Assembly (NCBI RefSeq): GCF_025153525.1
Contig: NZ_JANZNR010000002.1
Span: forward strand, 62,001 to 126,000
Source: Psychroserpens sp. SPM9
Lineage (GTDB): Bacteria > Bacteroidota > Bacteroidia > Flavobacteriales > Flavobacteriaceae
Direction of reading: 5' to 3'
Length of the DNA: 64,000 nucleotides
The translations under genes were made by a program, and so were the position numbers. Numbering within the stretch: the stretch's first letter is position 1; every line of letters starts with the position of its first letter. The notes under the pieces are model-generated. The model had not been told where the DNA came from. It worked only from the letters and a program-made list of their open reading frames with translations, and did not search any database. This document shows positions 8,693 to 10,935 of this stretch, in pieces.

Positions 8693-8965
8693 CTTATTAC
8701 CAATTGATTAATAAGTACTAAAGTTAATGTTTTTTAAGCAGATGCTACGAATTTTGAAATCTATATCATCACACGCAAATGAAAACACTAAAATTTGTTG
8801 ACAACAAGCTAATGACCCATAACTTTTCACTAATTTTATTCACATCCAAAGTATATATATATCACTATATTATTAACTGACAGTTATAAATAAAAAAATA
8901 TAATAACTTGTAGATTATTAAAATGTATATTTTATATACTCACAGATATATTTTTTACAATTTAT

Positions 8966-8995
8966 TTGGTGATTAAAATAATTGTTTTATATTTG
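8966..8995 (+). promoter_or_regulatory. Bacteroidota-type promoter of the retron-like RNA
   Basis: TTG at 8966-8968 and TATATTTG at 8988-8995 are separated by 19 bases, matching the TTTG / TAnnTTTG consensus of the Bacteroidota primary sigma factor. This predicts transcription start near 9001-9003, about 25 bases before the a1 repeat. The 270 bases between the sensor gene start (8692) and this promoter are very AT-rich and show no gene or clear structure. Confidence 0.75.
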
Positions 8996-9026
8996 CATAA
9001 GTTCTTTGAAAGAGTATTGAAAATTG

Positions 9027-9042
9027 TAGTAATTAAATTCAA
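9027..9042 (+). repeat. a1 arm of inverted repeat closing the retron-like RNA
   Basis: TAGTAATTAAATTCAA is complementary to 9319-9334 over 16 bases with a single G-U pair. In retrons the a1/a2 duplex brings the branching guanosine next to the reverse transcription start. The first G after this arm is at 9052, a candidate branch point only. The arm can alternatively form a local hairpin, GTAGT 9026-9030 with ACTAC 9043-9047. Confidence 0.75.
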
Positions 9043-9318
9043 ACTACTAAAGTGTATTAAGTTACACAACCAATTTATGGTTCTATTGGCGACGGCACGT
9101 AGCGCTCTTAAAGAGTTACGATGTAAACGCTGTTTCGGTTAACGATTGAAACAGATGAAGTCATTCACGTAAGAAAACTGCTAAGATGTATTAAGGCAAA
9201 ACCCTTGAAACGCTTAAAAGCTATTCTGATTTGAGTAAAGCTAATAACTGGCAATTAGTCTAACAAGGCTATGTAATGGCAAGGAATAATTCGGGGGTGA
9301 TATTGTGGACAACGCATA

Positions 9319-9334
9319 TTGAATTTAATTATTA
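9319..9334 (+). repeat. a2 arm of inverted repeat closing the retron-like RNA
   Basis: TTGAATTTAATTATTA is the partner of 9027-9042. It lies between two direct copies of GCATATTG (9314-9321 and 9336-9343), the first of which overlaps its start. Confidence 0.75.
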
Positions 9335-9353
9335 AGCATATTGGAAAAATGGC

Positions 9354-9372
9354 AAGGCAATAGTGCCTTTTT
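9354..9372 (+). terminator. Intrinsic terminator of the retron-like RNA
   Basis: AAGGCA (9354-9359), loop ATAG, TGCCTT (9364-9369) and then further Ts: a 6-bp stem with U-tract. It ends the RNA 20 bases before the 81-residue gene. It probably separates most of the non-coding RNA from the protein operon, with read-through or another start supplying the latter. Confidence 0.7.
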
Positions 9373-9391
9373 AATTAAAACCCAAAGATAT

Positions 9392-9637
9392 ATGCGTGAA
9401 GAAAGCAATTATCAGTACGTCGATGATCTCATACTAGGTATGAATACCATCCTTTCCGAGAGACGTTGTTCATTCTCGGACGAAGAAAAAGTTCATTTAA
9501 CTAATGCAATTAGGTATTTGGAAGATTCCAAGAAAAAAGGCAATAAAAAGCCAATTGATTGGAGTCTAATATTCAGAGGAATTGATTTACTCAGTAGAGT
9601 ATTTTCAAATTTTGATGACTTTAAGAACTTATTCTGA
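9392..9637 (+). CDS. Small orphan protein in the retron-like locus (81 residues)
   Basis: The frame is open from 9341, but an ATG there would lie inside the terminator, so the ATG at 9392 is preferred (product begins MREESNYQYVDD). The protein looks mostly helical: an acidic first helix, a Cys in ERRCSFSDEE, a Lys-rich turn (SKKKGNKKP), then an amphipathic helix (DWSLIFRGIDLLSRVF) and an acidic-aromatic end. No signal peptide or clear membrane helix. I do not recognise a family. Its place between the RNA and the HTH-RT pair suggests it belongs to the system, possibly as effector or accessory; that is inference. Confidence 0.6.
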   Translation: MREESNYQYVDDLILGMNTILSERRCSFSDEEKVHLTNAIRYLEDSKKKGNKKPIDWSLIFRGIDLLSRVFSNFDDFKNLF

Positions 9638-9672
9638 CCCGACACCCCTTAATTTTTTTAAAACAGTACTAT

Positions 9673-9966
9673 ATGGATTTAGGACTAGCAATCAAGTCAA
9701 TAAGAAAGCAAAAAGGTTTAAAACAAACCGAATTTGCTCAACTTTGTGATATAACGCAAGCGTATTTATCTCAAATAGAAAATAATAATAAAGAACCTAA
9801 TCTTTCTACATTGAAAGTAATTTCTAATAATTTAGAAACACCTTTACCAATATTGTTTTTTCTTTCTATTGATAGCGAAGATATTAGCCCAGAGAAAAAA
9901 GAAGCGTTTAAAATAATTGCTCCATCTGTGAAATCACTGATTAATCAATTTTTTGCAACTCAATGA
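9673..9966 (+). CDS. XRE/Cro-type helix-turn-helix protein of the retron-like locus
   Basis: 97 residues. Residues about 4-58 form a lambda-Cro/XRE HTH (LAIKSIRKQKGLKQTEFAQL, then TQAYLSQIENNNKEPNLSTL), followed by a helical tail of about 35 residues (ISPEKKEAFKIIAPSVKSLI) that could mediate dimerisation or partner binding. Its TGA stop overlaps the RT start (ATGA at 9963-9966), so the two are translationally coupled. Retrons pairing the RT with a small HTH protein are known (type VI in the published scheme, from memory). It may be an autoregulator, the toxic effector, or an antitoxin-like partner; the sequence does not decide. Confidence 0.85.
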   Translation: MDLGLAIKSIRKQKGLKQTEFAQLCDITQAYLSQIENNNKEPNLSTLKVISNNLETPLPILFFLSIDSEDISPEKKEAFKIIAPSVKSLINQFFATQ

Positions 9967-10796
9967 TCCGTACTACTAAACATTTAGCGTATACACTAAA
10001 AGTAGATTTCAAAGAAATTGAATCAATTATTAAGAATATAGATAACTTCTATAGGGAGAAAATAGAAATTAAGACAGATAAATTCGGAAAACCAAAACTT
10101 GACGCTCAAGGAATTCCAAAAAAAAGAATAATTCATCCAAGTAAAAAAAGGCTAAAAATTATTCAAAAAAGAATTCATCGAAATATTTTAAATAAAATAG
10201 AAATGCCTAGTTATGCATATGGAGCTGTAAAGAAAAAAGACAATGTAGACAATGCAAAAAAACATCTAGGTAAAAAGTACAAATTCACTACTGATTTAAA
10301 AGATTTTTTTCCCTCAATTAAAAATGAGGCTGTTTTTAAAATGTTTGTTAGTCAAGGATTTTCTCCAACAGTGGCAAGAATTCTAACACAACTAACAACA
10401 TATAAAGGACAAATCCCTCAAGGAGCACCTACATCCTCCACTCTTGCAAATTTGGTTTTTATCAAAACGGGAGACATTTTAAATAAGTTTGCTAAAAATA
10501 ATGGTGCTACTTTCACTTCATTTGTTGATGATATGACTTTTTCGTCCGCAAAAGATTTTAAAAACAAAATTCCAGAGATTCTGAAAATAATTACTTTAGA
10601 TTATAAGATCAGTCACAAAAAGACTAATTATTCTCGAAACCCAAATGTAACAGGTTTGCACGTTATGAATAACCATTTAGAACTTCCGAAATCATTTAAG
10701 GAAAAATTAGCCTCGACTGAAGGAAAGTCTCCTCAACAAATTGCTGGCCTTTTACTCTATAAAGAAAAAGTAGATAGATCAAATAAAGGAAAATAG
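9963..10796 (+). CDS. Retron-type reverse transcriptase
   Basis: 277 residues, a little short for retron RTs (about 300). It carries the two retron hallmarks: region X NAxxH as NAKKH (97-101) just before the RT3 motif TTDLKDFFPSI (Asp111), and region Y VTG (229-231) in NVTGLHVMNN. QGAPTSS (153-159) is the RT4 motif. The catalytic box is FVDD (187-190), with Phe where most retrons have Tyr. The N-terminal RT0-RT2 part (RIIHPSKKRLKIIQKRIHRN) is present; the C-terminal thumb is basic and short. It should prime cDNA synthesis from a 2'-OH of the upstream structured RNA. The gene is AT- and Lys-rich compared with the flanking housekeeping genes, and its start overlaps the HTH gene. Confidence 0.93.
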   Translation: MIRTTKHLAYTLKVDFKEIESIIKNIDNFYREKIEIKTDKFGKPKLDAQGIPKKRIIHPSKKRLKIIQKRIHRNILNKIEMPSYAYGAVKKKDNVDNAKKHLGKKYKFTTDLKDFFPSIKNEAVFKMFVSQGFSPTVARILTQLTTYKGQIPQGAPTSSTLANLVFIKTGDILNKFAKNNGATFTSFVDDMTFSSAKDFKNKIPEILKIITLDYKISHKKTNYSRNPNVTGLHVMNNHLELPKSFKEKLASTEGKSPQQIAGLLLYKEKVDRSNKGK

Positions 10797-10935
10797 CCAG
10801 TTACCAACAACGTGTATAATTAATTGCTAGTGTTGGCTAAGCGCAGGATTTTTTCTCACAATTTACTATATTGCTTATCAAAGAATAACAGCGTACTTGT
10901 GCGCAACTAACCATGTATGTAAACGTTAGAGTTAC
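10794..10935. repeat. Palindromic element at the 3' flank of the retron-like locus
   Basis: Starting at the RT stop codon, TAGCCA (10794-10799) pairs with TGGCTA (10834-10839) and CCAACA (10804-10809) with TGTTGG (10831-10836). Further on GCGTAC/GTGCGC (10891-10904) forms a hairpin. The ends carry related inverted cores: AACGT within CAACAACGTGTATA near 10807, and AACGTT at 10922-10927. From memory, elements beginning CAACAACGTGTATAA and ending in an inverted AACGTTGT recur at accessory-gene boundaries in flavobacterial genomes, so this may mark the edge of the inserted cassette. It could also end transcription (T6 at 10849-10854, 10 bases after the outer stem). Confidence 0.5.

Follow-up and report, generated by a model that had tools for sequence, protein, structure and literature searches.

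An intact-looking type VI retron in Psychroserpens sp. SPM9 and the RNA and possible regulatory features of its relatives

The locus described here lies at positions 8966-10796 of a 64,000-nucleotide (nt) stretch of contig NZ_JANZNR010000002.1, referred to below as the window, from the 3.8 Mb genome (41 contigs) of Psychroserpens sp. SPM9. About 390 nt of leader RNA precede three plus-strand genes, which code for a small protein, an XRE helix-turn-helix (HTH) protein and a reverse transcriptase (RT). By its sequence the locus is an intact-looking type VI retron, that is, a member of a known but little-studied type. The top match of each of the three proteins was a PADLOC model for type VI retrons (RT_VI with 258.8 bits, HTH_VI with 104.1 and SP_VI with 79.3). 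This agrees with the initial annotation, which had proposed a retron of that type from an RT and an HTH gene overlapping by ATGA; the overlap and all three genes are present at the positions listed in Table 1. The same annotation had taken the 81-residue protein for an extra, unrecognised part. The type VI classification reportedly goes back to Mestre et al. in 2020. In the available part of PMC8541194, which cites Mestre et al., type VI is described as an RT with a DNA-binding protein and small auxiliary proteins. Given this description and the SP_VI match, the small protein is a standard component of the type, and its reading as a novel component was rejected on that match. The gene set reads as ordinary for type VI, with several additional RNA and regulatory features that were not seen described in the accessible literature.

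Table 1. Coordinates of the features of the locus, in window numbering
Feature	Position	Strand	Basis
Whole inserted unit, ~2.13 kb, boundaries inferred	8799-10930		left end ~ L001 unit start (by eye)
Operator-like palindrome TTAACT-N3-AGTTAT, 11/12	8873-8887		reached by 0/200 shuffles
Weaker operator-like copy, 9/12, 30 nt on	8903-8917		palindrome scan
Weaker operator-like copy, 8/12, 32 nt on	8935-8949		palindrome scan
TAnnTTTG promoter element	8988-8995	+	found within 30 nt upstream of box in 18/24 loci
boxA-like leader box GTTCTTTGA	9001-9009	+	exact in 21/24 type VI-like loci
a1 arm	9027-9042	+	pairs with a2; own-versus-swapped tests
Hairpin A, GUGUA-UUAAGU-UACAC	9052-9067	+	compensatory changes, 12 selected sequences, 7 distinct
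Hairpin B, AACCA-AUUUA-UGGUU	9068-9082	+	leader fold
Variable region, presumed part of msd template	9083-9274	+	less conserved than flanks versus L001/L002, by eye; role inferred
Repeat R1 AATGGCAAGG	9275-9284	+	identical to R2
GAACwACG-type element before a2	9307-9321	+	by eye
a2 arm	9319-9334	+	exact 16-bp complement of a1; own-versus-swapped tests
Repeat R2 AATGGCAAGG	9348-9357	+	identical to R1
Terminator-like hairpin AAGGCAATAGTGCCTT	9354-9369	+	carries T-run in window
a1', second partner of a2	9371-9379	+	cross-locus covariation; weak in window
SP_VI small protein, 81 aa, proposed effector	9392-9637	+	PADLOC PDLC02970, E 5e-23
HTH_VI XRE protein, 97 aa, proposed autorepressor	9673-9966	+	PADLOC PDLC02926, E 8.4e-31
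RT_VI reverse transcriptase, 277 aa	9963-10796	+	PADLOC PDLC02952, E 1.3e-77; RT tree
attC-like 5' half after RT gene	10796-10827	+	90% over 30 nt to L001 site

The runner-up PADLOC model for the RT was RT_III-A with 184.8 bits. NAxxH and VTG motifs are hallmarks of retron RTs, and both motifs noted earlier were found in the protein, NAKKH at residues 97-101 and VTG at 229-231; N97, H101, T230, and G231 were invariant in nine aligned type VI RTs, near-copies counted. A tree was calculated from 51 retron-type RTs, comprising 22 type VI-like sequences and 29 others from the same searches (L002, L006, L018, L036, L039, and L042 left out; the 22 remain from the 24 type VI-like loci after removal of two near-copies). 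The 22 type VI-like RTs formed a single branch with a support of 100/100.

Twenty-four type VI-like loci from Bacteroidota were compared, with the gene starts of the relatives set by hand. The order small protein, HTH protein, RT was found in 20 of them. The remaining four (L045, L046, L050, and L054) carry the RT, the leader RNA and a small gene only, and their small proteins are basic or hydrophobic-tailed. On the RT tree, the absence of the HTH gene from these loci calls for three or more changes of state, possibly losses alone or losses combined with regains; RT, leader and small gene were retained throughout. A check of the layout in related genomes, as had been called for, showed that the upstream RNA with its paired arms is kept as well. 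L055, on a plasmid of Riemerella anatipestifer, lacks the leader, and its place is occupied by an IS4351-type transposase gene next to a predicted floR gene.

The leader RNA (8999-9391) folded with a minimum free energy of -94.2 kcal/mol (z -2.86; 2 of 100 shuffles equally or more stable). Three of its sub-segments, folded alone, were ordinary (z -1.01, -0.08, and -0.69). No Rfam family reached its gathering score on the window RNA. PADLOC includes msr-msd models, according to the available part of PMC9252829. Across loci, the leader follows one order: the leader box, arm a1, hairpins A and B, the variable region, repeat R1, a GAACwACG-like element, arm a2, repeat R2 within a hairpin, a1', and the start codon of the small gene. 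For each locus the segment from the box to this start codon was used, anchored on the box itself (GTTCT[TC]TG within 800 bases upstream).

The 16-bp inverted repeat reported previously is exact and corresponds to arms a1 and a2. Pairing was assessed by scoring the two segments of each locus against segments exchanged between loci, a comparison in which descent is not modelled. In 21 loci (without L002, L006, and L055; a2 and 3' segments overlapping by 5 nt), a1:a2 covaried with a score of 534 versus 372 ± 16.5 for swapped segments, the largest of 20,000 permutations being 452. The pairing of a2 with the second partner a1' covaried too (490 versus 364 ± 16.5, largest of 20,000 permutations 438). 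With 16 representatives (without L001, L002, L006, L020, L048, L050, L055, and L058) and non-overlapping segments, z was 8.2 for a1:a2 and 7.3 for a2:a1', and none of 50,000 permutations reached the observed sum; the negative controls in this set gave z -2.3 (a1 against the variable region) and -0.7 (a1 against the 3' end). A direct identity of a1 and a1' was unconvincing (295 versus 267 ± 10.8, largest permutation 317; loci without L002, L006, and L055). As a1 and a1' would compete for the same bases of a2, the RNA may switch between the retron fold and a local hairpin in front of the small gene.

Hairpin A showed compensatory changes at three of its five pairs among 12 sequences, seven of them distinct. 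These 12 of the 24 loci were selected for a stem of 5 bp with a loop of 6 nt, so that their 100% pairing is partly by choice. None of 500 shuffles was as high as the observed 10 doubly changed cells, or as the covariation score. The other loci have a different hairpin near this position, apart from L055 and L056, where no hairpin was seen. An 86% direct repeat in the window (9041-9061 and 9175-9195, 134 nt apart) spans the 5' side of hairpin A. A further candidate hairpin, b1:R1, was tested in 20 loci (without L002, L006, L008, and L051): the swap test gave 289 versus 249 ± 10.3 with a largest of 20,000 permutations of 290, and p was below 0.05 against shuffles in only 6 of the 20 loci (p 0.31 in the window).

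R1 and R2 are direct repeats on either side of a2. They match each other within a locus and vary between loci, reading AATGGCAAGG in the window, TGTAACAGG in L045 and TTTTAGGCACGTG in L054. The match was 376 versus 304 ± 11.7 in 22 loci (without L002 and L006; largest of 20,000 permutations 361) and had a z of 5.0 in the 16 representatives, where again 0 of 50,000 permutations reached the observed sum. In clear cases they stand 58-73 nt apart (73 nt in the window), and over the full list 52-76 nt, with the repeats of L008, L046, L051, and L052 being doubtful. Since clear repeats also occur in L045, L050, and L054, which lack the HTH gene, R1 and R2 are unlikely to be sites of the HTH protein. 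The intrinsic terminator proposed earlier at the end of the RNA stood in part: the hairpin with its T-run is present in the window, but by eye the T-run is not conserved in relatives.

The leader box GTTCTTTGA sets type VI-like loci apart. Its exact form occurred in 1 of 33 other RT loci, searched over 293-1500 bases upstream, which differs from the frequency in Table 1 with a one-sided Fisher p of 2e-11. Among the type VI-like loci, L046 and L051 deviate by one base, and L055 has lost its leader. The sole other locus with the exact box, L033, carries it about 0.9 kb upstream of the RT. Shortly before the box lies TAnnTTTG, which we take to be the Bacteroidota -7 promoter element. The consensus promoter of the initial annotation held in the form of this element, but not as an excess of sigma-70-like sites, of which 5 were counted versus a shuffle mean of 11.3 (sd 4.4). 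From its sequence, the leader box may act in antitermination. Were such a boxA-like start functional, retron expression would be linked to the Nus factors of antitermination.

Upstream of the promoter lie operator-like palindromes with the consensus TTAACT-N3-AGTTAA (15 bases), read by eye from the same loci. They are perfect in L007, L044, L053, and L056, and L047 has two, 32 nt apart. Of the 19 loci with an HTH gene, 8 reached p<=0.025 versus shuffles for an operator, and of the four without one, none did (n=23, L055 left out), which suggests that operator sites may accompany the HTH gene. The structure of the HTH protein was predicted with a predicted local distance difference test score (pLDDT) of 93.0. 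In a fold search, ClgR was found first (E 5e-4), followed by C.BclI, DdrO, and CapH (E 1e-3 to 2e-3). Most likely, the HTH protein represses the operon and is dispensable for the core function.

The small protein had no match in Pfam and NCBIfam at E 0.1 and is poorly conserved, with 34-36% mean column identity (L047 was ten residues short in one alignment and whole in a second). In all of the 23 small proteins scanned (without L006), the very different ones of the four HTH-less loci included, the C-terminal 36 residues held an 18-residue stretch more hydrophobic than any in the rest of the protein. Because the HTH protein appears dispensable, and RT and RNA would form the sensor part, the small protein is by elimination the likely effector, and putatively toxic.

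At a threshold of 1e-20, 35 of 397 genomes of the family had an RT_VI match; at 1e-62, 12 of 395 genomes of the phylum and 5 of 395 of the order did. From the family search, the best 30 of 38 places were taken as loci, and 7 of these 30 had both the small protein and the HTH protein. Among 23 genomes of the genus, only the genome that contains the window had a match to the window RT at 1e-20. Two closer relatives by RT, L001 from a metagenome-assembled genome (83% identity) and L002 from Algibacter pectinivorans (81%), came from a public genome collection, where a search with the window RT returned three loci, one of them a fragment. Three type VI-like loci were located on plasmids. No relatives of the window RT were found in viral contigs by RT search. 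A profile search of viral contigs returned nine loci, three with an HTH_VI-like gene and none with the small protein. In these three (L035, L037, and L040), the HTH_VI-like gene stands directly before a retron-type RT of a different branch.

With regard to its boundaries, alignment of the window with sister genomes picks up again between 10932 and 10957. The description of the block as an AT-rich insert is real, but the difference is modest (G+C 26-35% in the block versus 31-41% in the profiled flanks, in 500-base windows). Positions 1762-5608 of L001 contain four attC-like sites, picked by eye, with genes between them; one of the units so formed is the retron. All four sites pair (p 0.003, 0/400, 0.010, and 0.020 with 400 shuffles). 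Pairing of the window site with a 3' half was not significant (p 0.17). For the integron integrase model TIGR02249, none of 12 genomes passed the curated cut-off; 11 of the 12 had a match at 1e-20, as did unrelated controls. From these sites, the window unit may be a former integron-type cassette. The peroxidase and P450 genes adjoin each other in all eight relatives examined; the sensor gene was not found in the flank examined of those relatives, and no clean empty site was seen.

The explanation that we favour, and to which we give an even chance of being right as a whole, is that of a type VI retron with an HTH repressor, a small-protein effector held by RT and multicopy single-stranded DNA (msDNA), a boxA-like start and a switch at a2. 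The transcript would come from a single promoter, which the HTH protein would repress at the palindromic operators, and the boxA-like transcript start would let RNA polymerase continue across the long untranslated leader. Via a1:a2, the leader would fold into msr/msd, to which the RT would bind in order to copy part of it into msDNA. The resulting RT-msDNA complex would keep the small protein inactive until a phage interferes with the complex and frees it; its hydrophobic C-terminal helix would then attack the membrane or some other essential target, and the infection would be halted by the cell. The 3' module (R2, a1') would capture a2 in place of a1 and in this way set the balance between retron RNA and the mRNA of the small protein. 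In retrons of known mechanism, the msDNA restrains an effector until phage attack, as stated in the available part of PMC12948488, and by analogy the locus is probably a phage-defence module.

Several results speak against parts of this explanation. The difference in operator frequency between loci with and without the HTH gene was not significant (Fisher p 0.15). In 11 of the 19 HTH loci no operator was detected, and six of these scored no better than the HTH-less loci. For the small protein, the predicted model has three longer helices at moderate confidence (pLDDT 74.6), a fold search gave nothing at E 0.001, and the C-terminal hydrophobicity was above that of shuffles of the same protein (p 0.05) in only 3 of 23 cases and not in the other 20. 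Moreover, the small proteins of the four HTH-less loci, of L053 and of L056 had no SP_VI match. For hairpin A, the numbers of doubly changed pairs and of pair types were not above shuffles (275 and 411 of 500, respectively). In the rRNA leader of the window genome itself, the box reads GTTCATTAACAT and is two bases off the retron box. The combination of TTTG and box had 112 matches in 18 genomes (the retron sites and an overlapping double match are counted in) versus 99 for reversed controls; a general promoter-proximal element was ruled out by this count. As the combination barely exceeds its control genome-wide, the fixation of the box at type VI retrons is specific. The pairing a1:a2 was weak in 4 of 21 loci (at least 17% of swapped pairs equal) and a2:a1' in 9 of 21 (at least 20%), the window among them with 25%. 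In L046, L050, L051, and L056, the local stem is built instead from bases on the 5' side of a2. Given the weak local stem in the window and the 5'-side stems of several loci, the switch is put forward as a hypothesis.

The role of effector might instead fall to the HTH protein, which, once freed from RT-msDNA, would bind cellular or phage DNA and halt growth, with the small protein as an adaptor or antidote. Its conservation (60% mean column identity) exceeds that of the small protein, its gene overlaps that of the RT, and the available parts of two papers point the same way: PMC8867640 counts DNA-binding HTH proteins among retron effectors, which also tells against a repressor, and PMC8541194 describes type VI by the DNA-binding protein. 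We nevertheless regard this as somewhat unlikely in view of the four loci that have kept the small gene, leader and RT through repeated changes of the HTH state, and of the predicted fold, which is like that of small regulators (C proteins, CapH). Another reading concerns the 3' part of the leader: R1/R2, a1' and the 3' hairpin could belong to a mere mRNA leader or terminator of no relevance to the retron RNA, as the T-run of the window hairpin and the weak a2:a1' pairing there would allow. The within-locus match of R1 and R2 above swapped controls, the covariation of a2 with a1' although a2 covaries with a1 too, and the T-run, by eye not conserved in relatives, make this unlikely.

A further view of R1 and R2 takes them as sites of template realignment: the RT would copy from R2 back to R1, the end of the nascent cDNA would re-anneal at R2, and type VI retrons would produce long DNA of tandem repeats, each about 58-73 nt in length and 73 nt in the window. 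We consider this highly improbable. Quite improbable, too, is that the retron RNA and RT serve in regulation or in a mobile element and take no part in phage defence, which the cassette-like unit of L001 and the patchy occurrence within the genus would fit; patchy, moved units are common among defence systems as well, and retrons of known function are defence systems according to the available part of PMC12948488. Finally, the weak matches of the RT to models of group II introns (27 bits) and Drt2 (33 bits) could be taken as signs of a group II intron enzyme, or of one from a diversity-generating retroelement (DGR) or a defence-associated reverse transcriptase (DRT) system. The chance of this is negligible. 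The model for retron St85 scored far higher with 141 bits, all three staying below their own curated cut-offs, and among solved RTs the closest were Ec86 (137.8 bits) and Kva2 (129.8), far ahead of Drt2 (31.3) and a group II maturase (24.7). With NAxxH and VTG present, an origin outside retrons was ruled out, and the RT is placed within retrons as the initial annotation had it.

No account of a type VI retron mechanism was found in the literature searched, and no description of the leader box, R1/R2, a2:a1', the operators or the absence of the HTH gene in the accessible literature; subscription papers, the one defining the type among them, lay outside this coverage. A search joining retron and boxA returned no relevant publication. 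The comparison of loci yields testable claims on the identity of the effector, on possible binding sites of the HTH protein, and on the RNA elements that must change together.

The locus can be compared with several known systems. The leader box resembles the boxA of rRNA operons, for which the available part of PMC5725501 gives the gamma-proteobacterial consensus GYTCTTTAANA: GTTCTTTGAAA, the box with its next two bases, fits 10 of the 11 positions. Similar boxes lie 84-158 nt before the 16S rRNA in the window genome and relatives (one leader copy per genome, n=15, three too short; strict pattern in 4 of 15, other resemblances by eye), whereas the retron box follows TAnnTTTG by 5-12 nt, near the presumed transcript start. 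The HTH protein shares the XRE fold of small regulators with CapH and the C proteins of restriction-modification systems, but its regulatory role is deduced here from the operator-like sites alone. A tandem-repeat product would liken type VI to DRT10 and to telomerase with its short units, as opposed to single-unit msDNA. In the available part of PMC12632851, the RNA of DRT10 has a repeat-spacer-repeat pattern (A-B-A') that is kept despite sequence change, as is the case for R1 and R2; the spacing of about 58-73 nt in clear cases differs from the 9 nt of the main example given there, and the window RT has its best matches among retron models. The nearest solved RTs by profile, Ec86 and Kva2 (the latter a type IX retron in the portion of its description available), have different partner proteins, and the Ec86 alignment spans only about 200 residues. 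The closest likeness is to the type VI retron as represented by SP_VI, HTH_VI, and RT_VI in PADLOC, with the same three genes and an upstream RNA with a1:a2 arms; in this comparison, made without a published type VI RNA model, no difference in kind was seen.

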